Shown here in pieces: positions 37,170 through 60,156 of a stretch of 64,000 bases of DNA; within the stretch, counting starts at the first letter, position 1, and each line of letters starts with the position of its first letter. Below the pieces are notes generated by a model. That model was not told the origin of the DNA and did not search any database. It was given only the letters and a program-made list of their open reading frames with translations. The position numbers and the translations under genes were made by a program. Source of the stretch: an uncultured Treponema sp. (GTDB lineage: Bacteria; Spirochaetota; Spirochaetia; Treponematales; Treponemataceae); the NCBI RefSeq assembly GCF_946187725.1, contig NZ_CAMHSK010000010.1:1-64000 (forward strand), given 5' to 3'.

Positions 37170-40100
37170 TTAACCGACGGTCTGGTACCTCGATTTTTCG
37201 TTCATAATCAGCATTTGCAGACGGTTTTCGACATTTGCAAAGCTTGTGTCCGGGTCAAGGTCGAGCGGCAAAATCTGAACGGCAGGAAATTCTTCCTTTA
37301 CCTTTTTCATGATTCCACGGCCACAAATATGATTCGGGAGACAACCAAACGGCTGAAGAATTACAAACGACTGAACTCCTCGAAGCGCGTATTCCTTGAT
37401 TTCACCCGGAATTAACCAGCCTTCACCCGAAAGGAAGGTACGGTTCATGATTTCGTCAGTTTCGGCTGCAAGAACAGGGAGCGGTGTTGCCTTTTCAAAG
37501 AGAGGATGCTGACTAGCTTCCTTTTCACAGACTTTCTGCGCATACCCAAAGAGTTTTTCTGCGACGCGGTCAAAAATCGCATTCATTTTGTCGAATTTGA
37601 CATTCAAATCCTTTGACTCGACTACGCGGGCATAAAAATCTTTTCGGAACACATTCGCCATTCGAGGCAGAATCACTTCCATTCCGTTTTCTTCAAGATA
37701 TCGTTCAACATGGAAGTTTGAACCAGGATGGAATGTAACGAGATATTCACCGGTCACAAAGACACGCGGACGCGGATTTGAGCGGTCGTATTTAATCTGA
37801 CAGAGTTTTTTGATTCCTTTTTTGTATGCTTTGAGTGCCTTTGAAATGCCTTTGTCAATTCCAAGTGCGATATCATCAATCACTTCGTCAAATACGCGGT
37901 TTGTCTCGCCCTTGTTAAGCTCATACGGACGAATCTGACGGCGCAGTTCTTCGAGCATGTCCATCATCGTAACGACCCACAGCGAGCGGATGTTAAAGAG
38001 CGCACCGAGTCTGAACCCAGGATGCATATTTTTTGAATCAACAGGGTCAGTTGAGACAATCGGAACCTGATTGAATCCCGCCGCATCAAGCGCACGACGG
38101 AGCAATGCCGAATAATGCGAAAGACGACAGTCGCCCTGATATTTTGCCATACCGATTGCAACGCGGTCGAGCGGATATTTGCCGCTTTGAAGCGCAGAAA
38201 TTGCCTCACCGATTACCATTTGAGCCGGGAAACAAGTGTCGTTGTGAACATATTTTTTGCCCACCTGAATCTGACTGTTTTCACCAAGCGAAAGCGGCAG
38301 TGCACGCAATCCCTGTTTTCGCAAAACACCAGAAAGCAGCTTACAGAAAGCGACAGAAACATTCGGAATCAGAACTGTGCGCATCTCCAAATCTTCTTTG
38401 CTGAATTTTGAAGAATAAGCGTCGCCCAACTCTTTAAACGGGAGATTGCCTTTTTTGGCCCTTCGCTCAGTAATCGTCTCGATGAAAGACTTTACGCGGA
38501 TATTTAGGGAATTGGCCGCCCCGCCCTCATCAAGCTTGAGAATCAGCGGAGATTTTTCGGAAGTCTCGTTCATGATTCTGATGATTTCGTCTGAAAGAAT
38601 CGCATCATGTCCGCAACCAAAGCTTACAATCTGAACATATTCAAGCACCGGCGATTTTGCCGCCAAAAGCGCGCCCGAAAGCATTCGTGTGTGGAAGTTA
38701 TTTGTGACTTCGGCACGGGTGTAACGAAGATTAACATCGTTCAGTTCCGGCAAAGAATCAACCGTAAGAACAGGAATGTATTGCTTTGTAAAGACTCGCG
38801 AAAGATCGTGGCTTACAAGCGCATCCGTGTGATAAGGACGACCGGCCAGAACCACGGCAAAACTTCCTTCTTCGGTCACTTTGTCGATAATCTTCTGGCC
38901 TTCCTCACGCAATTTTGCACGGAAAGATTTAAGTGCTGTTTCACCCTGCTCAAAAGCGGCCTCAATTTCACTTTTTGGAAGCCCATAAGCCGAGTTAAAG
39001 TAATTGAGAATCTGATTTTTGCGGTCAGTTTCCGAATACCAGTGGAACATCGGGTTGTCAAAAGGAACATTCCAGCGTCGTGCAGGATTTTCGGAATGAG
39101 AAATAATCAGCGGATAGCCTTTTACGACTGCACAAACATAATTTGATGCTCTTGCCTTGTCGGTCGCAGGCATTTCCATGACCATTGGCATAAAGATTCG
39201 GCAATTTTCTTTGATTTTTTCAAACTGTTTGACCAAATCCTGGATGTGGCCGTGGGCTAGTTTGGCTGGGAAGCAGACAGTGTCGCTTGGAACGAATGGG
39301 ATGCCGTTTTCGAACATTTCCCGGCTGCTTTTGTGCGAGAGAATTACGTCGTAACCGAGAGAACGGAAGAAAGTTGACCAGAAAGGCATTGAATCCCAGA
39401 ATTCGAGAGTTCGTGGCAATCCGATTGTGATATTTTTCTTTTGGCTGACTTCTTTATAATCCCATTTTTTGAAAAGAAGCTGCTCGCGGATAAGGAAAAG
39501 GTCTGGAGTGTAGCGTGTCTTTGACTCAGGAATCACGCCCGGCTTTGTTTTCTCAGGCTCGCCAAGTCCAGAAACGGCTTCTTCGTCCCCGTCAGAAAGA
39601 CGGATATTTTTGTCCTCGTCGCTCAATTCTTCCGGCAGAACAACTTCACCGCGCGCACAACGGTTTCCTGTGATGTAAGTCGTGCCGTTCGAGAACTGAA
39701 TCAGGCTGCGTGAACAATGGTTCGCACATTTTGAGCAGATTACATTTTCGCGCTGTGTGTAAGAAAGTGATTCCAGTGCATCAAAGCCGATAAAATGGGA
39801 TTTTTCGCCCAAATTATGCTTTTCTTTTGTGAGCAACGCCGCACCGATACAGCCCATTTCGCCTGGGTATGGAGCGCGCTGAACGTCCACGCCTAGATAC
39901 TGCTCCAGAGAGCGCAAAACAGCATCGTTTTTGAAAGTTCCACCCTGAACTACGATTTTATTTCCGAGAATGCTTGTATTTGAAATTCGGACAACCTTTG
40001 TGAACACGTTTTCGATAATCGAGCGGCAAAGGCCAGCCATAATGTCATCTGGGCCGCAACCATTTTTCTGCTCGGTGATAATCGTTGAGTTCATGAAGAC

Positions 40101-41615
40101 CGTACATCGGCTTCCGAGGTCAGCAGGCTTTTTTGAGCGGAAAGCCGCATCCGCAATTTTGTCAGTCGGGATTTTGAGTGAAGAAGCAAAATTTTCAAGG
40201 AAGGAACCGCATCCGCTCGAACAGGCCTCGTTGAGCGTAATGTTCGTGATGATTCCATCAGAAACCCAGATTCCCTTCATGTCCTGACCGCCAATATCCA
40301 GGATAAAGCTCACGTCGGGAACAAAGCGGCGGGCAGCGGTTGCATGTGCTACTGTTTCAACAGTGTGATAATCAGCTCCGTAAGCCTTTGCAATCAAAAG
40401 TTCTCCGTAACCTGTTGTGCCAAGTCCAAGCACGTTGAGTTTTACGCCCATCGCCTCGTATTTAGCATGAAGTTCCATGAGTCCGCGGCGAACGACATTG
40501 ATTGGGTCGCCCCGGTTATTCGCATAGTAACGATCAAAGACTTTTTCGTCCTCGGTCATCAAGACCATTTTGCTCGTTGTACTTCCCGCATCAATTCCAA
40601 TATAAACATTGAGCGTATCGCCCGATTTTAAATCAATTTTTGCAAGTTCCGGGGATTTATGAGCTTCACGCCAGGCCCTGCATTCTTCTTCGTTTTCAAA
40701 ATATGGCTTTTTGATTTTTGAGCCAACATGCTCCACGCGAACAACTCCGCCATCAAGAGCATGAACGGCATCTTCGATTAAAATTCCGTCCGAACCTTCT
40801 TCGCATGGGAAAAGCTCATCCAGTGCAATCGCCGCACCTCGCGCAACGATTGTCTCCGGGTGCTCCGGGCGGATAATTTCTTCTGGTTTAAGATTTAATT
40901 TTTCGGCAAAAGCTTTTACAAGAGTATGGTCATAAGTGAGCGGGCCGCCCTCAAAAATAATCGGAGGCTTTAACTCCAGCCCCTGTGCCAGACCGCCCAC
41001 AGTCTGCTTTACGATTGCATGAAAGGCCGAAAGGGCAATATCTTCACGTTTAACGCCCTGATTGAGCATGGACTGAATATCTGTCTTTGCAAAAACACCG
41101 CATCGCCCTGAAATCGAATGCACTTCCGTTCCTGCGGCCGCAAGACCTTCAAACTGCTCGGTCGGAACTTTTAAAAGCGAGGCGATTTCATCGATAAAAG
41201 CTCCTGTTCCGCCCGCACAGCTTCCGTTCATTCGCATGTCAGAAGTTACAAGCCGCCCGTCATCATCATAAAAGAAAATAATTTTGGCATCCTGACCGCC
41301 AAGCTCAATCGCCGTTCTGGTCTGAGGATACAAGGCTCGGACAGCCGAAGAATTGGCAACAACTTCCTGAACGAAATGCGCACCGATTTTATCTGAAATC
41401 GGTTTTCCGCCTGAACCACAAATCGCAATTCTGAAACGCTGACCGGGGAATTTCTGTGCTACATCACTCAAAAGCCTTTGAGCTGTGTTCCATTGTTCAG
41501 CATGATGCCGTTCGTAATGATTGTAAACGATTTCGTTTTTTTCAGTATCAAGAATTAAGATTTTAACAGTTGTGGAACCAACATCGATTCCCATTCGCAA
41601 AAGTTTCTGTGCCAA
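37170..41615 (-). CDS. BadF/BadG-HgdB fusion: 2-hydroxyacyl-CoA dehydratase activator-like protein
   Basis: The 1,481-residue product contains two ASKHA ATPase domains of the HgdC/BadF type. The first has MGIDVGSTTVK, cluster Cys133 (NGSCAGGTG) and Cys172 (SGRCGVFAKTD). The second has GIDAGSTTSKMVLM, NEACSSGCGSF and LGSRCTVF. A DUF2229/HgdB-like half follows, ending in a large alpha/beta region with GRPYHTDALVSHDL and FVPSDTVCFPAKLAHGH. Such fusions are widespread in anaerobes but of unknown substrate. I take the TTG at 41615 as start because GAGG lies at 41623-41626 and TATAAT at 41633-41638; the first ATG is seven codons later (41594). No dehydratase subunits are adjacent. Confidence 0.9.
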   Translation of the reverse strand: MAQKLLRMGIDVGSTTVKILILDTEKNEIVYNHYERHHAEQWNTAQRLLSDVAQKFPGQRFRIAICGSGGKPISDKIGAHFVQEVVANSSAVRALYPQTRTAIELGGQDAKIIFFYDDDGRLVTSDMRMNGSCAGGTGAFIDEIASLLKVPTEQFEGLAAAGTEVHSISGRCGVFAKTDIQSMLNQGVKREDIALSAFHAIVKQTVGGLAQGLELKPPIIFEGGPLTYDHTLVKAFAEKLNLKPEEIIRPEHPETIVARGAAIALDELFPCEEGSDGILIEDAVHALDGGVVRVEHVGSKIKKPYFENEEECRAWREAHKSPELAKIDLKSGDTLNVYIGIDAGSTTSKMVLMTEDEKVFDRYYANNRGDPINVVRRGLMELHAKYEAMGVKLNVLGLGTTGYGELLIAKAYGADYHTVETVAHATAARRFVPDVSFILDIGGQDMKGIWVSDGIITNITLNEACSSGCGSFLENFASSLKIPTDKIADAAFRSKKPADLGSRCTVFMNSTIITEQKNGCGPDDIMAGLCRSIIENVFTKVVRISNTSILGNKIVVQGGTFKNDAVLRSLEQYLGVDVQRAPYPGEMGCIGAALLTKEKHNLGEKSHFIGFDALESLSYTQRENVICSKCANHCSRSLIQFSNGTTYITGNRCARGEVVLPEELSDEDKNIRLSDGDEEAVSGLGEPEKTKPGVIPESKTRYTPDLFLIREQLLFKKWDYKEVSQKKNITIGLPRTLEFWDSMPFWSTFFRSLGYDVILSHKSSREMFENGIPFVPSDTVCFPAKLAHGHIQDLVKQFEKIKENCRIFMPMVMEMPATDKARASNYVCAVVKGYPLIISHSENPARRWNVPFDNPMFHWYSETDRKNQILNYFNSAYGLPKSEIEAAFEQGETALKSFRAKLREEGQKIIDKVTEEGSFAVVLAGRPYHTDALVSHDLSRVFTKQYIPVLTVDSLPELNDVNLRYTRAEVTNNFHTRMLSGALLAAKSPVLEYVQIVSFGCGHDAILSDEIIRIMNETSEKSPLILKLDEGGAANSLNIRVKSFIETITERRAKKGNLPFKELGDAYSSKFSKEDLEMRTVLIPNVSVAFCKLLSGVLRKQGLRALPLSLGENSQIQVGKKYVHNDTCFPAQMVIGEAISALQSGKYPLDRVAIGMAKYQGDCRLSHYSALLRRALDAAGFNQVPIVSTDPVDSKNMHPGFRLGALFNIRSLWVVTMMDMLEELRRQIRPYELNKGETNRVFDEVIDDIALGIDKGISKALKAYKKGIKKLCQIKYDRSNPRPRVFVTGEYLVTFHPGSNFHVERYLEENGMEVILPRMANVFRKDFYARVVESKDLNVKFDKMNAIFDRVAEKLFGYAQKVCEKEASQHPLFEKATPLPVLAAETDEIMNRTFLSGEGWLIPGEIKEYALRGVQSFVILQPFGCLPNHICGRGIMKKVKEEFPAVQILPLDLDPDTSFANVENRLQMLIMNEKSRYQTVG

Positions 41616-46371: not shown

Positions 46372-49300
46372 TTACAATCCCATTTCAATTACCATTTCGA
46401 CTTCGCCAACCGTTCTCTTGTATCGGCGGGCAATTTCTTCTACGGTCCAGCCCATTCGTTTAAGCTGAATAATTGTTTCGCGGTCTTTTGGCGAAAGCCT
46501 TGAGCCTGCGCTGTATGAACCTGATTCAGCCGCACTTTCTTCAACTTCGGCACGAGTGATTTTCTCAAGCATGTCGAACTTATCGTTGATTTCCTGTGAC
46601 AATTTGTTGAGACGGATTTCCGTGTTCACGATGCCTTCTTTTGCCTTCTGAACCTGCTCAGTTCGCTTTTCGGTTTCTTCAAGCAAATTCTGCAAAGAAG
46701 TGATTTGCTCAACGGCATCATTGATTTTGCCCGAATTAGCAGTAATTTCTTCGATTCGAGCCTGAATTTTGGAAATTGTCTGCGGAAGAGTTTCTGCCTG
46801 ATTCTGAACAGTATCAAGACGACTCTCAACATTTTTGAGATTGTCAAAAGTTTTATCGACTTCGCCAGAAATTTGCTCCAGGACAGCCTGTTTCTTTTCG
46901 AGATTGTCATAACGGCCCGAAATTTTATCAAGGGATTCGTGGAAACTTCGCACAGTGAGCTGCAAAGACTGCAAATCAGAATTTGTTGTCTGCAATTCGC
47001 TGATTTTCTGATCCATTGTGTCACTCAAATTTACGAGGCGGTTGAAATCGCGTTCGATTGAATCAATCTGGCTCTTTTCAGCATTAAATTTAGCAAGTTT
47101 CTGGTCGATGTCACTGTTAATTCGCTGAATGTTCGTGAACTGACCTTCAAGCTCGTTGACAACAGACTGATATGTTCCGATTCGAGTAAGCTCTTTTTTG
47201 ATTCCTTCAATCTGCTTTTCGAGGCTTGCCTGAAGTTCATCTGCTTTCTGATAAATCTGCATTCTCGCTTCGAAATTCTTAACCTGACCATCAATTTCGC
47301 TGAAACGGCTCTGCAGGGCATCAACATTGTTGTTCATCTGCATGATTGTTTCGCCCTGTCGTTCTGCAAGCTGATTCTTCATATCCTCAATTTGTTTCTG
47401 GATTTCACGGACAGCTTTTTCTGAATCAGCATTCTGTGCCGAAATGCGCTCTTTTGTTTCGTTGAGAATCTTATTGTATGATTTTTCCTGCTCAGAAACA
47501 ATTTTTTCAGACTCGGTCCGGAAAGTTGAAACAGAAGCCTGAATCATGTCCTTTAATTCGCCAATGTTTGCAGAAATTTCTTCCTGGTCAGAATTTGCAG
47601 AACGCTTGAACTCTTCAAAATCAGCATTGAATTTATTTTTGATTTCTGTGAGGGCCTGTTCTGCCGCCTTATTAATATTCTCAAATTTTGAACTATAAAG
47701 CGATTTTGACTGCTCGAACTGATTGTTGAGCTGGGTACTCCATGCCCTGAAATCACCGACCATTGCATCGATATTCGCTTTGTTTGCCTCTGTTCGGTTG
47801 AGCAATTCAAGTTCCAAATCACTGATTTTTGTAGAACTTGAATCAATTGATTTGTTCAAAAGCTCGTTAAGGCGTTCACCGTAAGTTTTGAGCGTTCCCT
47901 TGATATAAGAATCAGAATTTGTGGTCGCAGCATCCAAGTCTGCACGGTTCTTTTCGCGGAAATCGTGCATTTTCTGCTCAACTTCGATAATCTGAGCCTG
48001 CAAATCTTCATTTGTCTTCTTTATAAGAGAATCATATCGTTCAAGAGTTTCGCGTGTCTTTTCTGTAAGTGAAGCAACATGATTTCTTAAATCTTCGGCG
48101 TACTTCACTTCAAGCTGACGGCGATTTTCTTCTTCATCAGACTGCAAAATCGACATCTTGGAATCAAAATTTTCACGCCAAGAATCGATGTTCGCGTCAA
48201 TTTCTTCGCTTCGGCGGCGCAAATCATCACCGTACTTCTTTTCAAAGGCATTAAGTGCTTCGGTGACATTCGTACTTGCAGATTCTTCGAGCACTTTGAG
48301 TGAACTTTCGAGTTCCGCAAGCCTTCCCTGTGTGACTTCTGAATCTTTTTGAATTGCGTCCTGGAACTGATTGTGCCGAATTGCCTGTTCTTCTGTAAAT
48401 TTGTTGAATTCTGCAAGAACGCGCTCCTGTGTTTTGGCAAGCGACTGTTTAAGTTCCTGCTCAAGAGCATCGACATCATTTCCGGTCTGTTCAAGTTTAT
48501 CGAAACGATACTGCATTTCTTTCTGATAAGCTTCAAGCTGACGGTCAACCGCAGAGAAAAGCTCAGATTTTTTGGTATCGTAAGTGCCGGCAATGTTCTC
48601 AAGCATGTCTTTAAGCATTTCATTGATTGACTTGATTTGCTGATCAGACTGAAGTTTAAATGTATTGAGTTGCTCAGTTGCCGCTGTGACAGTTTTTGTA
48701 ATCGTAGCCGCTGCTTCCGAAGCACCTTCAGTTGATGCTTCAAGATTCTGTTTGACTTCGCTGAGGGTTGCCTCAACCTTTTCATTTGTGCCGTTTACGC
48801 GATTGTCAACACTACTTTCGAGGCTTGAGATTCGGTTTTCGACTTCATTTTCAAGATTTTCGACCTTGTTAATTACATCGTTCTGCAAATTAGTTACTTT
48901 ATCAACAACACTCTCTTGCAATGAAACAATATTGCTCTGGAATGTCGTGACTTTCTCTGAGACATTTTCCTGCAAATCAGCGACTTTTGCATCGACCTGC
49001 TCTTCCAAATCAGAAACAATACGCTGAACACCTTCCTGCATTGAGCTGACTTTTGTATTTACTTCGCCCTGCAAATCAGTGACCTGCTCAACAACATTCT
49101 GCTGGATTTCAGAGACTTTTCCGTTTACAGCCTCAAGAAGCTGCTGCATCTTTTCGCTTACACCGATGTCAAGTTTTGAGACATTTGAATTGACCGCTTC
49201 GTCCAAATCAGCAACTTTTCGTGCAACACCATCAACAATTACAGTGACTTTTGATTCAACGATATTCTGCAAGCCACCGACTTTCTGCTCAACGATTCCC

Positions 49301-52300
49301 TGAAGTTCATCGACCTTGTTTTTTACATCACTTTCAAGGCCGCCAACTCTTCCTTCAACAAAATCCTGCAAAGTATGAACTCGACCGTTTACCTGGTCTT
49401 CAAGGCCTGTAACCCGCGATTCAACAAGATTCTGCAAATCAGTGATTTTTGCGACAACGCCGTCTTCAAGACCAGTTGCTTTTCCATTAACAAGATTCTG
49501 CAAAATTTCAAGTTTTTCTGCTACTGAACCATCAAGGCCTGTAACCTTTGTTTCGACCATGTTCTGCAAATCAGCAACTTTTTCTGTGACGCCGCTTTCA
49601 AGATTTTTGACTTTTGTATTGACCGCATTCTGCAAATCAGTGACTTTCTGAGTGACATCTGTTTCAAGACCGCCGACCGTTGAATCGACCATTCCCTGAA
49701 GATTGTTAACTTTCTGATTGACATCAACTTCAAGACCAGTAACCTTGCCTTCGACCATCTCCTGCATACCGTCAACCTTTTGATTGACTTCGCCTTCAAG
49801 CTCTGAGACTTTACCTTCAACCAGTTCCTGAAGTTCAGATACTTTCTGAGTTACGCCAGCTTCAAGACCGGTGACTTTTGTATCGACCATGCCCTGCAAT
49901 GTATCAACTTTCTGAGTAACCTCTGCTTCAAGGCCGGAAACCTTGCCTTCGACCATCTCCTGCAAGCCGTCAACCTTTTGATTGACTTCGCCTTCGAGTT
50001 CCGAAACCTTACCTTCAACCATTTCCTGAAGACCGGTGACTTTTTGAGTAACATCTGTTTCAAGACCGCCGACTGTTGAATCGACCATGCCCTGCAAAGT
50101 ATCAACTTTCTGAGTAACCTCAGTTTCAAGTCCTGAAACCTTGCCTTCAACCAGTTCCTGCAAATCAAGGACTTTTCTGGTTACGCCATCTTCAAGACCT
50201 GAAACCTTTGAATCTACCATTTCCTGAAGACCGCTGACCTTCTGCGATACACCGTCTTCGAGGCCCGCAACTCTGGAATCAACCATGCCCTGCAAGCCGT
50301 CAACTTTTTTGGAAACAGTTTCATCAATTCCGCTGACCTTATATTCAACAACATCATCCAAATCAGCGACCTTATCACTGACTTTCTGTTCCAAATCATT
50401 GATTTTTGTATCAACCGCACTTTCAAGCGTGTAGACCTTTTCATTGACGCGGTTTTCCATGCCGTCAACTTTTGAGTCAACAATAGCCTGAAGTGAATCA
50501 ACTTTATCATTGATGCCTTTAACGATTTCATCGACCTTGCCGTCTACATCGTAATCGAGGCCGTTAACTCGCTCTTCGACAGTCTGAACAAGGGAATTAA
50601 CCTTACCGTCAACTGTACCATTAAGCTCTTCGATTTTGCCCTGAACAGAATTTTCGATTGTATCAATCTTCTGATTTACATCGCCCTGCAAATCATTGAT
50701 TTTTGTGACAACATCCTGCTGCAAATCATTGACTTTTGATTCAACACCTTCTGTAAGCGTTGCAAATTTCGCAATGACTCCGGTCTGCAATTCATTGAAT
50801 TTATTTTCGATTCCGTCTGAAAGACTGGCAACACGACTTTCAACACTTTCTGCCATGCCCGAAACAGTATTTTCAACTTCCTGCTGGCGTGCAAAAATAT
50901 CATTCGTGAAATTCGTGACCTTAACATCAACATCACCCTGAAGGCTTGAAACCCTTCCATTTACTTCACGCTGAATTTCACTTACGCTCGCTTCAACAGA
51001 ATCATGCAGCTCGACGACTTTTGAATCAACTTCGTTCTGCAAATTGGTGATTTTTGTGAGCATGTCACGCTGCATGTCCGTGACTTTTTCGTCAACGCCC
51101 TGAGTGAGACCGGCAAATTTAGAGACAACGCTTGACTGCAACTCGTTGAATTTGCCTTCGATTCCACCTGAAAGATTTGCAAATCTGCCCTCAACATTTT
51201 CAACAAGACCAGAAACTTTTGCTTCGATTTCAGTCTGTTTTTCTGTGATGTCCGTCGTGAAATTCGTAACGCGTGAATTGACTTCACTCTGCATTCCATT
51301 GATTTTTTCTTCAACACGAGACTTGAACAAATCAAGATGCTCGTCTGAAATTTTCTGATATTTTTCGTAAGCGGCGGTTTCTTTTTCGTCCGCATTCTGA
51401 ATTGCTTTCTGGAACAGTTTTGCGTATCGTTCCTGCAAAGTCTGAATCTGCTTGCCCAAATTTTCGCGCAAAGTTTCGAGAGTTTTTCCGTTGCCGTTGT
51501 TTTCTGCCGCAAGTTCCTTTGAAGTAGCTTTTGCAGAAGAAAGTGCCTCTGTAAGAAGCTGGCGGATTTCTGCATTTCCGGCGTTAAACTGCTGATTGAG
51601 AGCCTTAGTCTTCTCTTTTATAGAAGAATCTATTTCAGCGATATCATTGTCTACATTTGTGGCAATAGCTCCGACTTTTTGATTAAGCGCAGTTTCAAGT
51701 TCAGTGATTTTTGCAATGCTTGCCTTTTGTGAAACAGCAATCTGATTATCAATCTGACCTGAAAGCTGGTTAGTCTGGCTTTCCATTGCCTTGAGGATAT
51801 TTTCTTTGCGACTTTCGGCTGCCTGAGTAAGCTGAGCAAATGCCTGTTCTTCAAGATTTTGTGCCTTGCTTGCAGCCTGTTCGTATGCTTCTTTTATGCC
51901 GTTCTGAAGATGTTTGAGAAGTTCTTCAACGCGTTCAACAGATGCCGTTGTAGAGCCGTCAATTTCCTGGGCGCGTTCTTTATATTGATTAAGAAGCTCG
52001 GTTCCAATGAGCTTGAGACTTTCGTTGTTTCGCTTTGAGAATTCGTTGCTGATTTCGGGGATTTTGCCTTCGATTCTGTTTACTGCCTTTTCCTGTTCGG
52101 CGATTTTGGAATTCAGTTTTTCGATTAATGCAGATTCTTTTTTGATTCGGAGCAGGTTTTCTTCGACATTTTCTGTCATTTCCATAAGTTCAGAAAGGAC
52201 TTTGCCGTACGCGTCGATTTTTTGGCCGATATTGTCAACAGCATCAAACTGCTTGTCAAAATCAGCACTTGCGGAGTCAAATTCAGAGATTTGTGATTCA

Positions 52301-52527
52301 AGTTTTTTTACAGCGGCGGCGGCCTGAGCCTGCTGAGTTTCAAGATCGGCGGAAATAGAATTTAAGCGCTGACCTCGTTCCTCGAACATCCGCTCTATTT
52401 CCTTTTTTTTATTTTCAATGAAAACCCTGAGATTATCGTTGGTCGGAGTTCCACCGCCCAATTTACGCATGACAAAAGAGACTGAAGCCGACGCAACAAT
52501 CGACAATAATACTGCTAGACCTATCAC
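46372..52527 (-). CDS. Giant membrane-anchored hendecad coiled-coil protein with C-terminal HTH
   Basis: The 2,051-residue product begins at GTG 52527 (GGGG site upstream). Residues 1-20 are one membrane segment (MIGLAVLLSIVASASVSFVM), followed by a cytoplasmic charged coil (about 25-400). A region of about 410-1245 is built of 11-residue units such as LQEMVEGKVSG and LEAEVTQKVDT, which alternate to give a 22-residue period; Pro, Cys and aromatics are almost absent. A further coiled coil runs to about 1990, and the last about 40 residues (SPKDRETIIQLKRMGWTVEEIARRYKRTVGEVE) look like a helix-turn-helix. It is probably a cytoskeletal or scaffold protein linking membrane to DNA or to itself. Large coiled-coil proteins are known in other spirochaetes; equivalence is not tested. 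Confidence 0.85.
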   Translation of the reverse strand: MIGLAVLLSIVASASVSFVMRKLGGGTPTNDNLRVFIENKKKEIERMFEERGQRLNSISADLETQQAQAAAAVKKLESQISEFDSASADFDKQFDAVDNIGQKIDAYGKVLSELMEMTENVEENLLRIKKESALIEKLNSKIAEQEKAVNRIEGKIPEISNEFSKRNNESLKLIGTELLNQYKERAQEIDGSTTASVERVEELLKHLQNGIKEAYEQAASKAQNLEEQAFAQLTQAAESRKENILKAMESQTNQLSGQIDNQIAVSQKASIAKITELETALNQKVGAIATNVDNDIAEIDSSIKEKTKALNQQFNAGNAEIRQLLTEALSSAKATSKELAAENNGNGKTLETLRENLGKQIQTLQERYAKLFQKAIQNADEKETAAYEKYQKISDEHLDLFKSRVEEKINGMQSEVNSRVTNFTTDITEKQTEIEAKVSGLVENVEGRFANLSGGIEGKFNELQSSVVSKFAGLTQGVDEKVTDMQRDMLTKITNLQNEVDSKVVELHDSVEASVSEIQREVNGRVSSLQGDVDVKVTNFTNDIFARQQEVENTVSGMAESVESRVASLSDGIENKFNELQTGVIAKFATLTEGVESKVNDLQQDVVTKINDLQGDVNQKIDTIENSVQGKIEELNGTVDGKVNSLVQTVEERVNGLDYDVDGKVDEIVKGINDKVDSLQAIVDSKVDGMENRVNEKVYTLESAVDTKINDLEQKVSDKVADLDDVVEYKVSGIDETVSKKVDGLQGMVDSRVAGLEDGVSQKVSGLQEMVDSKVSGLEDGVTRKVLDLQELVEGKVSGLETEVTQKVDTLQGMVDSTVGGLETDVTQKVTGLQEMVEGKVSELEGEVNQKVDGLQEMVEGKVSGLEAEVTQKVDTLQGMVDTKVTGLEAGVTQKVSELQELVEGKVSELEGEVNQKVDGMQEMVEGKVTGLEVDVNQKVNNLQGMVDSTVGGLETDVTQKVTDLQNAVNTKVKNLESGVTEKVADLQNMVETKVTGLDGSVAEKLEILQNLVNGKATGLEDGVVAKITDLQNLVESRVTGLEDQVNGRVHTLQDFVEGRVGGLESDVKNKVDELQGIVEQKVGGLQNIVESKVTVIVDGVARKVADLDEAVNSNVSKLDIGVSEKMQQLLEAVNGKVSEIQQNVVEQVTDLQGEVNTKVSSMQEGVQRIVSDLEEQVDAKVADLQENVSEKVTTFQSNIVSLQESVVDKVTNLQNDVINKVENLENEVENRISSLESSVDNRVNGTNEKVEATLSEVKQNLEASTEGASEAAATITKTVTAATEQLNTFKLQSDQQIKSINEMLKDMLENIAGTYDTKKSELFSAVDRQLEAYQKEMQYRFDKLEQTGNDVDALEQELKQSLAKTQERVLAEFNKFTEEQAIRHNQFQDAIQKDSEVTQGRLAELESSLKVLEESASTNVTEALNAFEKKYGDDLRRRSEEIDANIDSWRENFDSKMSILQSDEEENRRQLEVKYAEDLRNHVASLTEKTRETLERYDSLIKKTNEDLQAQIIEVEQKMHDFREKNRADLDAATTNSDSYIKGTLKTYGERLNELLNKSIDSSSTKISDLELELLNRTEANKANIDAMVGDFRAWSTQLNNQFEQSKSLYSSKFENINKAAEQALTEIKNKFNADFEEFKRSANSDQEEISANIGELKDMIQASVSTFRTESEKIVSEQEKSYNKILNETKERISAQNADSEKAVREIQKQIEDMKNQLAERQGETIMQMNNNVDALQSRFSEIDGQVKNFEARMQIYQKADELQASLEKQIEGIKKELTRIGTYQSVVNELEGQFTNIQRINSDIDQKLAKFNAEKSQIDSIERDFNRLVNLSDTMDQKISELQTTNSDLQSLQLTVRSFHESLDKISGRYDNLEKKQAVLEQISGEVDKTFDNLKNVESRLDTVQNQAETLPQTISKIQARIEEITANSGKINDAVEQITSLQNLLEETEKRTEQVQKAKEGIVNTEIRLNKLSQEINDKFDMLEKITRAEVEESAAESGSYSAGSRLSPKDRETIIQLKRMGWTVEEIARRYKRTVGEVEMVIEMGL
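49060..50300. repeat. 66-bp coding repeats within the coiled-coil gene
   Basis: The 22-residue unit is visible at the DNA level. For example GTCAACCTTTTGATTGACTT recurs near 49770 and 49970, with the flanking CTTCGACCATCTCCTGCA also conserved. High identity between distant units points to recent unequal crossing-over, so copy number may differ between strains. Confidence 0.8.
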
Positions 52528-52567: not shown

Positions 52568-53236
52568 TTATAACACAATATTGAGAAATTGACGATAGTT
52601 TGAGAATGAAATATCAGCTTCTTTGATTTTTTTGCTGAAAAATTTTTTAAGCGGAGAAGCGATTACTGCACTTTTCATGCCGGCATTATTTGCCCCACGG
52701 ACATCAAATTTGAAACTATTGCCGACATAAAGGATTTGATTTGGTTCAAGCGCAAGAGCCTTTGCCATAACACCAAACGGATATTTTGAAGGTTTGAGTG
52801 CTCCAAGTTCTTCTGAACCGAGAACAAAATCGCAGTAAGGAATTAAGCCCCAGATTTCACCTTTTTGACTTGGAGGAAAATCGGAAAGGAGAGCGATTTT
52901 GTAGCCCTTTTCGCGGAGAGCTTTGAAGGTTTCGTGTACTGCCGTGAATGGCTTGATTCGTTCAAAGTACGGCCTGAGACCGTCATAAGCAATTCTTTTG
53001 ATTTGGGCTTTTGCTTCGGCGACTGTACAACCGTAATGCTCGGCAAAAACCCGCCCCTGATACTCGTAAAAATCCGGCAGGGGAGCCGTTCTGTGCATGA
53101 TTTTTCGGACTTTATTGTAGTGCAGATAGAATCGAAAATGCCTGATGATATATGGAATAATCCTCCAGTATAGAGAGAAAGAAGGGTAAAGAGTGCCGTC
53201 AATGTCAAACGCAACAGCCTTTATATCATCGAGCAT
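52568..53236 (-). CDS. HAD-superfamily hydrolase
   Basis: A cytosolic phosphatase of the haloacid dehalogenase superfamily. The 222-residue product has motif I DIDGTLYPS (about 11-19), motif II LLSDFPP, motif III Lys in ALKPSKYPFG and motif IV YVGNSFKFD. The cap is a small helical insert. The substrate cannot be told from sequence. TATAAT lies eight bases before the ATG (53245-53250), suggesting its own short-leader transcript between the TonB-like gene and the coiled-coil gene. Confidence 0.88.
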   Translation of the reverse strand: MLDDIKAVAFDIDGTLYPSFSLYWRIIPYIIRHFRFYLHYNKVRKIMHRTAPLPDFYEYQGRVFAEHYGCTVAEAKAQIKRIAYDGLRPYFERIKPFTAVHETFKALREKGYKIALLSDFPPSQKGEIWGLIPYCDFVLGSEELGALKPSKYPFGVMAKALALEPNQILYVGNSFKFDVRGANNAGMKSAVIASPLKKFFSKKIKEADISFSNYRQFLNIVL

Positions 53237-53286: not shown

Positions 53287-54480
53287 CTAATTCTTTTTAA
53301 TCGTGTAGTCGAAACGAGCCGTACCGTCATAAGAAACAGCCTGGAATCGCCAGCGCGAAATTTGCTCACGGATTTCCATTGTAACGAGTGACGGAAGAAT
53401 ATCCGGAGAAATTTTTACGCTTGTGACCGGAACATTTCCGCTTGCAGTAACTGTGAATGAAACGGTGAGGCGTTTTGTGCTGTCAATCAGGGCAGCCGCT
53501 TCTGGAGAAAGAATGATTTTAGGCTCGGCCGGTTCCAGAAGAACTCGCGGCGTGCCGTCAGTCATTTGAAGTGAAACCTTGCCGTCTGATGATTTTCCAG
53601 TGTTTGCCGTAACAGAAGAAGAAACATCACCAGACGATGAAGAATATGCCTTTGCGGAAACAGCCTGAGCAAGCGCGCTTGATGTGGCCGCACTAGCCGT
53701 CTGATTTGCAGAAGAGCGTGCCGTGCTTGAAGCCACAGTCGTAGCAGTTGATGTGTTTGAAGAAGATGATGCCGCACTGCCAGAAAATGCGTTCTGACTT
53801 GCCGCAGTGCTTGGATTTACCTTTGCGACCGCTGATGATGAAGAATTTGAAGAAGTCGTGCCTTCGATTTCATCAAACTGAGACCAGTCAAATTCTTTTT
53901 TGGGTGCCTTTTTCTGCTGCTGTTCAGCCATAAGTTCTTCCATGCTTTTTTGCAGCTTTTGCTCGACAGGTTTAGGCTGTTCAACGGTCTTCGTTTCAGT
54001 TTTTTTTGTAGCCTGCGTTGTTTTTGCAGGCTCAGTTTTTTTAGGCTCCGAAGGCTTAGAAGCAGATTTTGCAGGTTCTGCCTTTTTAGGCTCCGTTTTT
54101 TTTGGCTCAGATTTTTTTGCCTCTGATTTAGCAGGGGCGTTGCGGGGTGTCCCCGCAGAAGGGGTAGCGAAAGACGGCGCAGCCGGCTGAAGTGAGGGGG
54201 AGACTTCCCCCTTTGTATTATTTTCTGTCTTTTGAGCAGAAGTTTCAGCTTTTTGAGGTTCGGATTTTTTTTGCTCGGTCTTTTGAGATTCAGATTTTTT
54301 GCTTTCGGCATTCTTCGGACTTTCAGTTTTTGTGGGTGCGTCAAGCCGAATTTTTATAGTTTTATACTGCTTTGGTGCAAGCAGAATCGCCCCAAAATAA
54401 AAGAAGAGAAAAATCAAAATCCAGACCAGAACCGTGCCTACAGCTCCCACGATTGCGGGTTTCTGCTCAACCTGCCTCAT
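53287..54480 (-). CDS. TonB/TolA-like energy transducer with repeat-derived linker segment
   Basis: Links inner-membrane ExbB/ExbD to outer-membrane partners. The 397-residue product has a membrane anchor (about 12-35), a Lys/Glu/Pro/Ser-rich linker (about 50-180, many KKSEPKK units), a Ser/Ala-rich stretch, and a C-terminal domain (about 310-397, LTVSFTVTASGNVPVTSVKI, REQISRWRF) of the TonB fold. Residues about 90-117 (GEVSPSLQPAAPSF and following) come from a GC-rich repeat in frame (54136-54215). The start overlaps the exbD stop (ATGA). The acceptor is likely the barrel gene upstream, by context only. Confidence 0.85.
   Translation of the reverse strand: MRQVEQKPAIVGAVGTVLVWILIFLFFYFGAILLAPKQYKTIKIRLDAPTKTESPKNAESKKSESQKTEQKKSEPQKAETSAQKTENNTKGEVSPSLQPAAPSFATPSAGTPRNAPAKSEAKKSEPKKTEPKKAEPAKSASKPSEPKKTEPAKTTQATKKTETKTVEQPKPVEQKLQKSMEELMAEQQQKKAPKKEFDWSQFDEIEGTTSSNSSSSAVAKVNPSTAASQNAFSGSAASSSSNTSTATTVASSTARSSANQTASAATSSALAQAVSAKAYSSSSGDVSSSVTANTGKSSDGKVSLQMTDGTPRVLLEPAEPKIILSPEAAALIDSTKRLTVSFTVTASGNVPVTSVKISPDILPSLVTMEIREQISRWRFQAVSYDGTARFDYTIKKN
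54136..54215. repeat. GC-rich repeat inside the TonB-like gene
   Basis: The block is bounded by GTTGCGGGGT and GGGAGACTTCCCCCTTT, the same words that bound the GC-rich part of the insertion in the ABC-F gene. It interrupts a Lys/Pro-rich linker with Pro/Ala/Ser/Thr residues and keeps the frame. Confidence 0.65.
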
Positions 54481-54884
54481 TTTTCGCTCGTCCTAAGATT
54501 TACGCTCACAAATCCTTCGCCACGAAGAACATCAAAGATTTTAACGATTGAACCGTTCGTTACATTTTCATCAGCTTCAAGAGTGACCGGATATTCTTCT
54601 TTTTTGCGGCCTTCAGTGTCATAATTTGCCAGTTTTTCACCCAGCGTCCTGAACGAAACCTGCTCATCATTGAACCACATTTTGCCATTTGACTGAACGG
54701 TAATTGTGATTCCTGCGATGTCGGCTCCCTGTGCCGTTGAACTTTCGGGCAAATTTACATTGATTGCCGGTAAAATTGCAAAAGTCGTTGAAACGAGAAA
54801 AAACAGAATCAGCTGAAAAACGACATCAATCATCGGCGTAAGATCGACATTTACGCCCCGTCTTTTTCGATTGGAAACTTTCAT
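54477..54884 (-). CDS. exbD: ExbD/TolR family biopolymer transport protein
   Basis: Forms the proton channel stator with ExbB. The 135-residue product has a short basic N-terminus (KRRGVNVDLTPMIDVVFQLILFFLV) with the key Asp in the single membrane segment (DVVFQLILFF, about 17-37), then a periplasmic ExbD domain. It overlaps exbB and the TonB-like gene by ATGA on both sides, so the three are translationally coupled. Confidence 0.93.
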   Translation of the reverse strand: MKVSNRKRRGVNVDLTPMIDVVFQLILFFLVSTTFAILPAINVNLPESSTAQGADIAGITITVQSNGKMWFNDEQVSFRTLGEKLANYDTEGRKKEEYPVTLEADENVTNGSIVKIFDVLRGEGFVSVNLRTSEK

Positions 54885-55492
54885 AGAACTCGCCCGGTGA
54901 GTCTGAGAATCAATTTTGTGACCGTGCCTTCCATTTCAGTAACAAGCTTGTCTGCCTTGCGTGAAAGAGCATTGCTGAAAATAAGAGAAGGAATTGCAAC
55001 AAAAAGACCAGCCGCAGTTGTCATCAAGGCCTCGGAAATTGAACTTGCGAGAACAGCCGGATTACCCATGGTACCCCCGGAACCCAAAACACCGAATGCC
55101 TTAATGTTGCCGGTTACAGTTCCAAAAAGACCGAGAAGTGTTGAAATATTTGCGATTGTGCTCAAAAGAGTGAGCCAGTGATCAAACTGTGGTGCAACAG
55201 AATCAATCTCGCACTGAACGATTTCACGCATGTCATCTTCGGTGAGCTTACGACAGCCGATTGCCTTTTTGGCCACATGAGAGAGCGGCGTGCCAGCCTG
55301 ATTGCAGAAAGCCTCTGCTGCAGAAAATTCTCCGCGTCCAAGCAGTTCCTCAAGATTTTTGCGTAATTCTCTGTCGCGCTTCTGAACTGAAGCAAAGTAA
55401 ACGCAACGCTCAATGATAATGTAAGTCGCAAAAAGACCACAAAGCAAAATCGGAATCATCAAGATTCCGCCACTTTTTAATAAACCAATCAT
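54881..55492 (-). CDS. exbB: ExbB/MotA/TolQ family proton channel protein
   Basis: Inner-membrane motor subunit. The 203-residue product has three membrane segments: near 8-30, then about 105-130 (LTLLSTIANISTLLGLFGTVTGNIKAF), and about 150-172 (ALMTTAAGLFVAIPSLIFSN). The conserved Thr and Gly residues of the pore are present. It has a GAGGGG site and lies 13 bases after the barrel gene. Confidence 0.93.
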   Translation of the reverse strand: MIGLLKSGGILMIPILLCGLFATYIIIERCVYFASVQKRDRELRKNLEELLGRGEFSAAEAFCNQAGTPLSHVAKKAIGCRKLTEDDMREIVQCEIDSVAPQFDHWLTLLSTIANISTLLGLFGTVTGNIKAFGVLGSGGTMGNPAVLASSISEALMTTAAGLFVAIPSLIFSNALSRKADKLVTEMEGTVTKLILRLTGRVL

Positions 55493-55505
55493 ATTTTCCC
55501 CTCAA

Positions 55506-57218
55506 TTAGAACTGGAATTTAGCCAGCAAAACCGCATTTCCAGAAGTTGTTATGTACTGAGAATGTGCGAAATCGCGGCTTGTTCCATGAAGTAATTTTA
55601 TTACATCATTGACTTCAAAAGCAATACTAAGCGCGCCAGCTACCCGGATTTCTGCCCATCCAGAAAGATTCGGACATTTGTCGGCATTTTCGCCAAGAGC
55701 AAAAAGCGTTGAAGTTCCGGCATTCCACTTTGCATCAAGACTCTGATATTCGAGCGAAAGGCGGACTTTATGTTCATCTTCAAGAGTCGGACAATCTTTC
55801 CAGAATGATTTCCATTCCAATCCGGCTTTAACAGGTGAAAAATCAGCAAAGAAACCAAGATTTGTGTTGAATTCCGTGCGCTCTTCAGGTGCAATCAGAT
55901 AAAGGCCAAAATTATGAACTGCTTCCGCTGCATCGATAGCAGAGAGAAGATTTGAATTCTCGTACTTTGCCATCCAGATTCCGTTTTCAAAGGCAGTTTT
56001 TCGGAATTCAAAGCCAGATTTTACTTCAAATGAACTCAAAACAGGCAGTGTCAAATCAAGGCTTGCAAACCAGTCCGAAGTTTCACATGGAAGGGCCGGT
56101 GCTACAGCAAAGCGGTATTTATTCTCAAGATTGCGTATTTTTTCCTGATAAGAATCGAGGCCGCCCCGGAATGAAAGCGTGATGTCCCTGTCTTCAGTAA
56201 AGCTTTCGGTCTTGAGGTCAAAAATGCCTGTAAATGCCGGGAGAACTTTTTTTGAACCAGTTGCAGTTCCGACGATTACAGAACCATCTGCACCAGCAGT
56301 AATTGATTCATTTTCTACTGAAAGAGCCAGCTTAAACTGTCCGCGATGCGAATAGTCAGCACTTGAAGAATCTTCGAGTTTCAAAAGATTTTCACCCTTT
56401 TCAAGATTTGCCTGAAATCCGTAAAAACCAGTGAAGATGAGCTTAAAAACATCGTCCGTCCAGCCGATTCCTGCAAAGGGATTCAAGTCCATGATTTTCG
56501 TACTATCGATATAATTTCCGCTCGTAAAATTGTCCTTCATGACTTCGCCGTAACGGTTAAACCATGCAGCGTCCACTCCATAAGAAATAAGCAGCCCTTT
56601 GTCAGTACGCCAGTTTGATTCAGCATTTCCTGAAATTGTATGCTTTACCGTGTCAGAAAATGCGTCAGATTTGAGCTGAAGGCCGTCATCACTCATCTTG
56701 TACTCGCCCTCAATTTCATGCTTTCCGTAAGTTCCGAACAGCGATTTTTTTCCGTGAACAGAAGTTCCCCGCTCAAAATAGCCTTCCTTTGACTTTTTGC
56801 CGGCAAAACCTTCTGAACTTTCATGATTAAAATCAATTTCAAATGGTGAATTTCCCGAAGCCCTGTAAATCGAAAAATCGCCTTTAAAATAGAAAGGATA
56901 ACCGGCACCGAGCTCGCCCTGTGCGTAAATGTCCTTTTCTTTTTGACTTGCACGCTCCCGGCTTTCAGGAATTTCCCTGGCGGCCTTTACGCCTTCCATC
57001 TGAGGAAGCTGAACCTTTGGTGCAGAAGACTCAGGCAAAATCTTTGTATAATCAGGAACCGAGTCTTTGCCTGCGGTGAAAGTTTTTCCGTTTACAACAG
57101 TCGTGACATCGGGCAACTCAATTTCTTCTTCGACTACCTCGTTCTGCTTTGCCTGATTCTGTGCGAAAATTGAAACAGTGGCTGAAAGTAAAATCATTTT
57201 CAATAAAAATTTCTTCAT
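55506..57218 (-). CDS. Outer-membrane beta-barrel protein with N-terminal plug-less extension
   Basis: Not recognised as a named family. The 570-residue product from ATG 57218 (AAGGAG site) has a signal peptide (1-20, ending IFAQ), an acidic segment with EEEIELPDVTTVVNG (about 30-45) that might act as a TonB box, and then alternating strands rich in aromatic and Gly residues through to a C-terminal Phe (LLAKFQF), typical of barrels folded by BamA. It lacks an obvious plug domain of a classical TonB receptor. It sits between the TPR gene and exbB in one operon. Confidence 0.72.
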   Translation of the reverse strand: MKKFLLKMILLSATVSIFAQNQAKQNEVVEEEIELPDVTTVVNGKTFTAGKDSVPDYTKILPESSAPKVQLPQMEGVKAAREIPESRERASQKEKDIYAQGELGAGYPFYFKGDFSIYRASGNSPFEIDFNHESSEGFAGKKSKEGYFERGTSVHGKKSLFGTYGKHEIEGEYKMSDDGLQLKSDAFSDTVKHTISGNAESNWRTDKGLLISYGVDAAWFNRYGEVMKDNFTSGNYIDSTKIMDLNPFAGIGWTDDVFKLIFTGFYGFQANLEKGENLLKLEDSSSADYSHRGQFKLALSVENESITAGADGSVIVGTATGSKKVLPAFTGIFDLKTESFTEDRDITLSFRGGLDSYQEKIRNLENKYRFAVAPALPCETSDWFASLDLTLPVLSSFEVKSGFEFRKTAFENGIWMAKYENSNLLSAIDAAEAVHNFGLYLIAPEERTEFNTNLGFFADFSPVKAGLEWKSFWKDCPTLEDEHKVRLSLEYQSLDAKWNAGTSTLFALGENADKCPNLSGWAEIRVAGALSIAFEVNDVIKLLHGTSRDFAHSQYITTSGNAVLLAKFQF

Positions 57219-57264
57219 CACTAAACTCCTTATAAACTCCGCGTTAACGGCGTTGCCTCCTTGA

Positions 57265-60156
57265 CTACAAGTGATTCACGATTTTTTCTGCATCTTTTGT
57301 ATATTTATTTTCTGGATAAAGCTTCTTCATCTCTGTGAAAGTCGCCTTTGCATCTGCGTATAAACCTGCCGCATCAAATGATTCAACTGCCCCGTACAAA
57401 CTTCTGGCAGCATTATCATCTTTTCCTGCCTGTCGCGAATATTTTACGGCATCAAGATACATTTCTGCCGATTTTTTGTTTTCGCCACGGTTTCGGTATG
57501 CACCAGCAAGGAAAATCGCATTCTTCATGGCAGCCGCACTCTGCGAAGGATCTTTCTTCTGTTTGGCAAGTGCTGTTTCCGCAGATTTTATTCTGTCTTC
57601 TTCAGAATTTGCGTTCCAGACAGTCGAATTTTTCAGTTCTTTGATTTTTTTGTCGATTCCGTCTCGTAAAGCCTGCTCGCCATAATCATCAATCATTTTA
57701 TTCGCCATGGCAATCGCTTCCTTGAGTTCACCAGTTTTCTGATACAAGTCCACGAGATTTTTTTCTGAACCATAGCGATATGAAGTTTCTGCTTTCGAAT
57801 CAACAATCTGTAGATAGCGGAGAATTGCCTTTGTTTCGTCGCCGCTTTTTGCCATTGAATCCGCAGAAAAATAAATTGCCGCGAAATTAAATCTTCCGCC
57901 TGCAAAACGACGGCTGTATTCGCTGAAAAGTTCCGCCGCTTTTCCAAAATCTCCCTGCGAATATGCAATTTCTGCACGCCTGTAGCAGGATTCTTCTGCA
58001 ATCAGAGCAAAATTACTGTCAGTTAATGCTGCAAGTTCAGCAAAATACTTGTCCGCTCCGGCAAAATTTCCTTTCTGAACAAGGATTTCCGCACTTCGAT
58101 ATTTACAGTCATAGCCGAATGCAGAGCGCTGGTTTGTGTATGGAGAAAGGACTGCAAGCGCCTCATCGAATTTCTGAGAATCTGAAAGAATTCCGGCATT
58201 CAGAAGAATCGCCTCATTTTTTTCGCTTTCATTCTTTGCAATTCTGACAGCTTTTTGTGCCGAACTAAGCGCAACCGATTCATTTTTAGCAAAAGTTGCC
58301 GCACGGGCCGCAGTCATGTTTGCAGACCATGAAAAAAGATGCAGAGGATTTTCTTCTATAAAATGAATCAATGAAGTGACAGCCTTTGAATATTCCCCAA
58401 GCTGATATTGAGCATATCCCATGTAAAACTGAGCGTAAGCCACATAATCTTTTTGAAGGGTCTTTGATGAAATCACCTTTGAGAAAGCAGATTCTGCCTC
58501 GCCCCACCTGTGCTGATTAAAAGAAGCCAGTGCCGCAAGATAAATCGCCTCATCGCCTTTAGCCTTTGAAGCCTGCTCTTTCGTTGAAATGTAGTGCCCC
58601 GCAATCAGGAGTGTGCGCGAATAGTCCAGACGACCGTCATTATCAAGCTGATTCTTTTCGCCCAGAGAATAGAAAATCACATCGGCATCGTGGTATTTTC
58701 CCTGTTTTGCAAGAGATTTTGCATAAAGATTCAGAATCGATTTTTCGGTAATTTTTAGCGGAGAAGGTGGCGCTTTTGCAGTAGACGGAACCGGCGGAAG
58801 TCCGTTCAGTTCACGATTGTAGTTTTCGATTGAATTTATCGCCTGAACGATGTCTCCTGATTCATATTTGGCAAGTGCGAACCAGTAGACCGCATTTTTT
58901 TGAATCTCATCATTTTCTGATTTAAGGCATTTTGCCGCGTAAGTTTCGCAATCTTTCCAGTTTTTCAGATAAGCGTTATATCTTGCGATTGAAAGCAGAA
59001 TCGTCTCGTTTTTTGAACCTGATTTTGTAAGAACGGCTTCGCCCAAAATAGAGACTGCCTTTTTGCATCCGGCAGATTTTTCATTCGCCGTCAGATAAGC
59101 GATTTCCGCACGATAAACAGCCGAAATTTCTTTCTGTGAGTCAGACGCACTGTGTTCGGCTTCGGTGAAATATGAGAGTGATTTTTTGTAATCCTTTTCG
59201 TTGAAGGCATCAACTGCAAGTCTTGTCCAGAATTCTGAAAGCAAATCAGGATATTCGGAAAGACGATTTTCTGCATTCAAAAGAACGCTTCCCGGTTCAC
59301 TGCCAACTTCAGCTTTGTGCTCAGAAGAGACGGCATAAGCCTTCTGCATTGCAGTTGCCGCCAGATGTGACGGTGCCTTTTCGATTACAGTGCAATAAGT
59401 TTCGTAGGCCGCTTTGTATTTTTTTTGATTTTCCTGAGCTTCACCTTTTAAAATCAGAAGGGAATAAGCGGTTTCATCATCAAAATCCACATTCTCAAGC
59501 TGGGAAAGCAGATTTTCACATTTTCGGGCATTCTCGAAATCCCCAAGCTGATTATAGGTCTGTGCCAGCGAAAGAACGGCATCATCAAAATCAAATCGGC
59601 TGAATTTTGCACCGTTCGAAACGACATATTCAAAAAGCGGAACGACCTTCTTGAAATCTTTTGACTGAAAATAACACTTTCCACCGTAAAGCATAGAAAG
59701 TGCATAATAATCGAAAGAATTTTCCGCGTCTTTCGGACTGATTTCCTGCAAATCCTTAAAAATCGCCGCACTGGCAAAAAAAGAGCTCTGAGCAAGCGCA
59801 AGCTCGCCCTGTGAAAAATAAGCCCGTCCAAGCCAGAAAAATCTGGCCGCATTAAGCAAAACTGTCTCAGGATTAAGCGAATCACCGTTCATCTGGTGTT
59901 TTTTTAGAATCGCAATGGAATCCTCGATGCGCCCCATCCTAAAGAGACTTTCGCCTTCATAAACGGCCGCCCTGAATGTTGCGAGCGAATTTTTCTCTGT
60001 GCGAAGAATTTCTTCGGCATAACGAACGACACCAGGATAAAACCCTGACTTGTAGCTTGATTTTAAATCTGCGGCAAGCTTTTTGTTCTCAGAGAAAAGC
60101 GGTGGTAAAATCAGAAAAACAAATGGAACTATAAAAAATTTCTTCATGTTCTGCAT
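57265..60156 (-). CDS. Periplasmic TPR-repeat protein
   Basis: The 963-residue product has a signal peptide (1-22) and then helical tandem repeats through most of its length. TPR-type signatures include ARFFWLGRAYFSQGELALAQ, YAQFYMGYAQYQLGEYSKAV, CYRRAEIAYSQGDFGKAAELF and SLYGAVESFDAAGLYADA. It resembles YbgF/CpoB-type or BamD-like scaffold proteins but is much longer. It is probably a periplasmic or outer-membrane-associated scaffold for the barrel and TonB proteins. TATAAT (60165-60170) lies eight bases before the ATG. An in-frame ATG three codons later (60147) is an alternative start. Confidence 0.82.
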   Translation of the reverse strand: MQNMKKFFIVPFVFLILPPLFSENKKLAADLKSSYKSGFYPGVVRYAEEILRTEKNSLATFRAAVYEGESLFRMGRIEDSIAILKKHQMNGDSLNPETVLLNAARFFWLGRAYFSQGELALAQSSFFASAAIFKDLQEISPKDAENSFDYYALSMLYGGKCYFQSKDFKKVVPLFEYVVSNGAKFSRFDFDDAVLSLAQTYNQLGDFENARKCENLLSQLENVDFDDETAYSLLILKGEAQENQKKYKAAYETYCTVIEKAPSHLAATAMQKAYAVSSEHKAEVGSEPGSVLLNAENRLSEYPDLLSEFWTRLAVDAFNEKDYKKSLSYFTEAEHSASDSQKEISAVYRAEIAYLTANEKSAGCKKAVSILGEAVLTKSGSKNETILLSIARYNAYLKNWKDCETYAAKCLKSENDEIQKNAVYWFALAKYESGDIVQAINSIENYNRELNGLPPVPSTAKAPPSPLKITEKSILNLYAKSLAKQGKYHDADVIFYSLGEKNQLDNDGRLDYSRTLLIAGHYISTKEQASKAKGDEAIYLAALASFNQHRWGEAESAFSKVISSKTLQKDYVAYAQFYMGYAQYQLGEYSKAVTSLIHFIEENPLHLFSWSANMTAARAATFAKNESVALSSAQKAVRIAKNESEKNEAILLNAGILSDSQKFDEALAVLSPYTNQRSAFGYDCKYRSAEILVQKGNFAGADKYFAELAALTDSNFALIAEESCYRRAEIAYSQGDFGKAAELFSEYSRRFAGGRFNFAAIYFSADSMAKSGDETKAILRYLQIVDSKAETSYRYGSEKNLVDLYQKTGELKEAIAMANKMIDDYGEQALRDGIDKKIKELKNSTVWNANSEEDRIKSAETALAKQKKDPSQSAAAMKNAIFLAGAYRNRGENKKSAEMYLDAVKYSRQAGKDDNAARSLYGAVESFDAAGLYADAKATFTEMKKLYPENKYTKDAEKIVNHL

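Follow-up and report, generated by a model that had tools for sequence, protein, structure and literature searches.

The locus at 46372..52527 on the minus strand of the 64,000-nucleotide stretch analyzed here (the window; uncultured Treponema sp., contig NZ_CAMHSK010000010.1) raises the question of what a spirochaete does with a 2051-residue protein that carries a membrane anchor at one end, a long array of 11-residue repeats in the middle and a small helix-turn-helix (HTH) at the other end. The original prediction proposed a cytoplasmic filament or ruler that connects the membrane to DNA or the nucleoid in a helical cell. The reading that we favor, tentatively and at somewhat short of an even chance, is that the product, a member of the SpiroCoCo family, is a giant single-pass, inner-membrane-anchored cytoplasmic rod with a tunable hendecad spacer and a protein-docking HTH tip, the long form of which would be used by flagellated spirochaetes.

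Anatomy of the SpiroCoCo protein

The open reading frame (ORF) begins with a GTG codon preceded by the purine-rich GGGTGGGGATAAAAAA, and two NCBIfam models matched its product above their curated cut-offs: SpiroCoCo_N at residues 7-233 (1.9e-62, 210.7 bits; cut-off 75 bits) and SpiroCoCo_C at residues 1730-2047 (1.8e-103, 346 bits; cut-off 125 bits). Judged by these end models, the protein is a member of the already named family SpiroCoCo (entries NF047514 and NF047515; NF047516 is LA_3659), among whose members its own hendecad array is unusually long and regular. A literature search for SpiroCoCo, BB0512, LA_3659 and DUF6115 found no relevant paper; the family seems to be named yet uncharacterized, and apparently unstudied, in the literature searched, and we did not find described the combination of a phylum-wide part order, a hendecad accordion, an acidic HTH tip and a collapse in aflagellate lineages. 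The protein is acidic (247 Lys and Arg compared to 380 Asp and Glu) and contains four prolines and no cysteine.

The N-terminal anchor of the original prediction was borne out. Residues 1-20 (52468..52527, minus strand) reached a Kyte-Doolittle hydrophobicity of 2.42, and the remainder of the protein did not exceed 0.92. The segment is followed by the basic MRKLGGG, and a hydrophobic segment followed by basic residues was seen across the family. By the positive-inside rule this pattern suggests an N-out/C-in topology, which would place the rod in the cytoplasm.

Behind the anchor, the handedness of the protein is predicted to run left, right, left. The first left-handed coiled coil spans residues 56-165 (52033..52362), the hendecad array, or variable-length spacer, residues 412-1269 (48721..51294), and the C-terminal left-handed coiled coil residues 1730-1993 (46549..47340), all on the minus strand. 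Over the 858 residues of the array, which lacks Pro and Cys, the hydrophobic power was 191.9 at a period of 11/3 compared to 0.65 at 7/2; no period in any of 200 shuffles exceeded 10.5. The array thus has no 7-residue periodicity, and the earlier estimate of about 835 residues, or about 75 hendecad units, was right if slightly low. The core positions 0, 4 and 8 of the 11 (mostly Leu, Val and Val) were hydrophobic in 84, 99 and 91% of the units, and the register was unbroken between about residues 544 and 1203; it shifted near 544 and in the stretch 1171-1203. This right-handed 11/3 periodicity is shared with known hendecad coiled coils. The flanking coils (56-165 and 1706-1980) had a period of 3.46, that is, left-handed and heptad-like, so the protein is not hendecad over its whole length; the second of them is the further coiled coil that had been expected after the array. 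In the AlphaFold2 model of the last 325 residues, a single chain like all models used here, it formed one continuous 266-residue helix before a linker, not a bundle. We infer that the rod is a parallel oligomer. Part of the array (49640..50295, minus strand) consists of tandem DNA units of 66 bp (two hendecads) and 198 bp (six hendecads) that match at 66-78%, which argues for recent expansion of the array by duplication.

When AlphaFold2 was supplied with 35 aligned relatives, its model of the C terminus showed a long helix that a floppy linker separates from three short ones (2013-2024, 2029-2035 and 2040-2050), with predicted local distance difference test (pLDDT) scores of 85-94. The HTH of the original prediction therefore folds in the model, as a trihelical unit at residues 2008-2051 (46375..46506, minus strand). 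The Arg and Lys ascribed to it are also present, although they sit in helices 1 and 2, of which helix 1 is basic; helix 3 is acidic, with a net charge of -3. The Pfam family DUF6115 (PF19610), which has no known function and covers 134 positions compared to the 2051 residues of the window protein, matched the C-terminal coil and HTH above its gathering score of 27 when the last 110 residues (31.7 bits) or the last 72 (27.3 bits) were scanned, and below it (23.6 bits) in the scan of the whole protein; 33 of 35 SpiroCoCo relatives matched as well. Solved structures related to the tip by sequence comprised only generic HTHs and designed repeats, and a viral structure library returned only generic phage HTHs.

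Distribution, length and the link to flagella

SpiroCoCo_C scored above its cut-off in 284 of the 392 Spirochaetota genomes that are at least 90% complete, and sub-threshold, near-full-length matches would add more. Matches with names include Brucepastera, Breznakiella, Gracilinema and Marispirochaeta. The anchor-hendecad-HTH order first seen in the window recurred in every full-length relative examined, from genomes that we infer from their size and kinship to be Treponema-, Borrelia-, Leptospira- and Brachyspira-like: a transmembrane (TM) segment, a short left-handed coil, a middle with a periodicity of 11/3 to 18/5, a left-handed C-terminal coil and the HTH.

Length is much less constant than part order. 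Full-length proteins had a minimum of 808 residues and measured 1102 in a T. pallidum-sized genome, 2162 in a Borrelia-like one and 7832 in a Brachyspira-like one (L052/L053, G058:C1), and the family as a whole ranged from 480 to 7832 residues across the phylum. Within the genus of the window itself the protein varied from 1123 to 3417 residues, and this threefold difference sits in the hendecad middle. A ruler of strict length that fits the diameter of the cell was therefore rejected, and with it the fixed-length ruler of the original prediction, given the threefold spread inside one genus and the 7832 residues in one genome. A few loci departed from the single intact gene. Tandem pairs of SpiroCoCo genes were seen at G001:C28:21315-26207 and G014:C8:90117-95200. 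A one-contig genome had its SpiroCoCo_C match in a 327-residue frame (G100:C1:748335-749267) and the gene may be broken; in Brucepastera (L079, 6091-10300) a 652-residue ORF directly precedes the SpiroCoCo ORF of 752 residues, and the gene may be naturally split or frameshifted there.

Presence of SpiroCoCo_C went together with flagellar genes. Of 80 SpiroCoCo_C-positive genomes sampled, 79 had a FliG match above cut-off, the lone exception being a 230-contig assembly; all 14 further positive genomes had one too. A set of 54 genomes without SpiroCoCo_C yielded no FliG above cut-off; 49 of them belong to family f12, which is probably Sphaerochaetaceae, three to f4 and one each to f22 and f23. 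FlhA was absent from all FliG-less genomes tested (13 of f12, together with G301, G310, G372, G334 and G364). The association gave a Fisher p of 5e-32, with the genomes being non-independent and the signal coming from about four lineages. FlhF was rejected as a presence/absence marker since its model matches other signal recognition particle (SRP) GTPases in every genome.

The idea that aflagellate spirochaetes lack SpiroCoCo altogether was rejected, as the SpiroCoCo_N model and synteny revealed a short ortholog in the lineages without FliG and FlhA. These orthologs have 275-709 residues and retain the N-terminal anchor; of 15 examined, nine scored above the SpiroCoCo_N cut-off and the other six more weakly. 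The HAD gene lies upstream of 13 of them, most with GrpE-DnaK-DnaJ on the other side, giving the order HAD-X-GrpE-DnaK-DnaJ; the two f4 genes have neither neighbor. The long hendecad array and the SpiroCoCo_C coil were found in none of the 15, and the HTH was missing from all 11 f12 and both f4 orthologs. In the f12 proteins acidic stretches, often repeats, replace the HTH and end in a similar WVEYIPEGEEEEITLDEEE-like tail. Taken together, these comparisons suggest that the long rod tracks flagella, the HTH tip only partly and the anchor not at all. As an observation on the f12 loci themselves (L166, L169-L172, L175-L178, L181 and L182), several of the acidic ends are tandem repeats (DEPSDE..., PETEEL..., PELDE...), and a terminal peptide close to EYVPEGEEEEITLDEEE stands in the place of the HTH, perhaps as an alternative docking peptide.

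Proposed role and competing explanations

In the mechanism that we propose, the anchor would fix the rod at the inner membrane, from which the window protein would reach about 0.29 µm at full extension. The hendecad stretch, right-handed or straight, would be a tunable spacer that grows when units of two or six hendecads are duplicated in tandem, and the C-terminal left-handed coil would display the small HTH as a protein-docking tip rather than as a DNA reader. In flagellated, mostly helical spirochaetes the long form would keep a cytoplasmic client at some distance from the membrane or alongside it. This client would most plausibly be a factor for flagellum placement or for the cytoskeleton; FlhF is the most specific candidate, put forward here as a hypothesis. 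SpiroCoCo probably helps to organize corkscrew, flagellated cells, because it is near-universal in flagellated spirochaetes and shrunken where flagella have been lost. A bolder version is possible but doubtful: a phylum-wide accordion rod of 0.1 to more than 1 µm, with an HTH-derived tip that now docks proteins instead of reading DNA, would place flagella or the motility machinery, and flagellar loss would collapse the rod to its anchor.

Several observations weigh against a role tied to flagella. The HTH is retained in the aflagellate f22 (275 residues) and f23 (509 residues) orthologs, genomes G334 and G364, and the anchor persists in all aflagellate lineages, so neither part can be purely flagellar. 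Genus g49, in which FlhA and a divergent FliG are present, has only forms of 436-496 residues, with the HTH. Eight genomes were FliG-positive without SpiroCoCo_C; seven of these are in 160-360 contigs and one is in 90, and since they are fragmented, broken assemblies are the likely explanation. The commonest neighbors of SpiroCoCo are HAD, TolQ/TolR and GrpE-DnaK-DnaJ rather than flagellar genes. Helical shape and flagella were lost together, so the correlation cannot separate them; the helical-cell role of the original prediction is favored indirectly, by the confinement of the long form to flagellated lineages. The remaining points, a DUF2802 score of 16.9 bits for the tip compared to the Pfam cut-off of 33.5, and better scores for Rpn-like proteins of the window genome that carry a generic GLPVEQIAQGVGLS motif, concern the kinship of the tip.

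DUF2802 enters through FipA. FipA binds FlhF through this domain and needs G110 and L129 to do so; its E126 is invariant (PMC11620751). The SpiroCoCo tip resembles DUF6115 and, more weakly, DUF2802. One could accordingly imagine a recruiter whose tip would bind the SRP-type GTPase FlhF and, like FipA of gamma-proteobacteria, help to determine how many flagella are formed and where. FipA has a single N-terminal TM segment, a cytoplasmic coil and a small C-terminal domain (PMC11620751), an order that sequence and model give for SpiroCoCo too. The match is ungapped: within the last 110 residues, numbers 78-107 align with profile positions 36-65, which puts G110, E126 and L129 of FipA on G2026, E2042 and M2045 of the window protein; the spacing of 0, +16 and +19 (G-x15-E-x2-L) is equal in both, and G, E and L or M occupy these positions in 32, 30 and 32 of 35 relatives. 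DUF2802 matched 26 of the 35, at best with 1.7e-7. The window genome has flhF within the order flhB-flhA-flhF-flhG, and FlhF controls flagellar number in Borrelia, as far as Zhang 2020 is cited in PMC11607428. We nevertheless consider such a recruiter unlikely. Because the Rpn-like motifs outscore the tip, we rejected the idea that the DUF2802 match establishes kinship with FipA; the 18-kDa FipA works without a giant rod, and SpiroCoCo occurs also in lineages without FliG and FlhA, two of which retain the HTH. The Rpn-like proteins themselves are several and match DUF2802 through a shared LQMGLPVEQIAQGVGLSAEEI motif at the C terminus (G000 C14:46348-49470, C53 and C6; L043-L045); one was read in L043 and the rest are short matches only.

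Other proteins invite comparison. Through DUF6115 the tip may be linked to SwrB of Bacillus subtilis. SwrB is a single-pass membrane protein, like SpiroCoCo, and activates flagellar export (PMC4526659); the two are likened by description. CfpA, which forms cytoplasmic filaments in Treponema, is a long filamentous spirochaete protein too and is likened by description only; the SpiroCoCo rod differs from it in being membrane-anchored and in ending in an HTH.

In another reading the protein would form a filament that stiffens the body of the cell; the HTH would serve for assembly or docking, and the flagella would be no more than a correlate. The long continuous coiled coil suits a filament of this kind, the anchor is present in all lineages, and the long form is limited to flagellated lineages, aflagellate spirochaetes being mostly non-helical. 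A threefold range of length in one genus would be odd for the subunit of a fixed lattice, however, and we hold a shape or cytoskeletal filament to be improbable.

Still less probable is the membrane-to-nucleoid tether of the original prediction, in which the HTH would bind DNA. The predicted tip superposes on Pax5 (1.0 Å over 44 residues, Z 7.3) and also on the Tc3 and IstA transposases and on resolvases, all DNA-binding HTHs, and helix 1 is basic; a Z near 7 would nonetheless reflect a widespread arrangement and is not evidence of function. Helix 3, the recognition helix, had a mean net charge of -2.2 in 35 relatives (range -4 to 0, never positive). The SpiroCoCo_C model, rather than a tip motif, served to pick these relatives, and loci found with the pattern GEVELILE were left out of the count. 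An acidic or neutral recognition helix in all 35 makes DNA binding by the tip unlikely. In addition, SpiroCoCo has Glu, Glu and Leu at the positions equivalent to Cys64, Ser66 and Lys67 of Pax5, which we take to be its DNA-contacting residues, and the f12 and f4 lineages have lost the HTH or carry acidic tails in its place.

Finally, that the 11-residue array is an amphipathic helix lying on the membrane surface, apolipoprotein- or synuclein-like, is very improbable: the Pfam Apolipoprotein profile does match the protein at 6.8e-91 and the 11/3 periodicity is common to both, but the hydrophobic stripe is only about 65 degrees wide, the net charge is -79 across 835 residues, and the core has Lys/Arg along one flank (70% of position 7) and Glu/Asp/Gln along the opposite one (the majority at position 1), an arrangement that suits interhelical salt bridges and argues for a salt-bridged coiled coil over a helix on an anionic membrane.

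Neighboring genes and significance

The conserved direct upstream neighbor in the window is a HAD-type hydrolase gene (52568..53236, minus strand; Pfam Hydrolase 1.4e-18, HAD_2 1.2e-17). The HAD cluster was present in 52 of 95 SpiroCoCo loci, on the same strand and upstream in 50 cases, with a median gap of 41 bp. Farther upstream, TolQ, TolR, porin-like and TPR genes occurred in 21-31 of the 95 loci, and GrpE-DnaK-DnaJ lay downstream in about 20. One strand of the T. pallidum-sized genome carries fliF-fliG-fliH-fliI-fliJ-racemase-HAD-SpiroCoCo-X-secD, in this order. The window itself carries, at 53287-60156 (minus strand), genes for a TPR protein, an outer-membrane-like protein, TolQ/ExbB, TolR/ExbD and a TonB/TolA-like protein, which resemble an energized envelope system. 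On the other side, at 37170-41615 (minus strand), a 1481-residue ORF looked, by eye, like a fused 2-hydroxyacyl-CoA dehydratase-type activator and dehydratase.

For the placement of periplasmic flagella in spirochaetes, and for the upkeep of a flagellated helical body, SpiroCoCo is a concrete candidate, as a near-universal, unstudied giant rod whose long form appears to track flagella and which is shrunk in four flagella-less lineages. It would also offer a striking example from nature of how a right-handed coiled coil can grow through repeat duplication between fixed ends.

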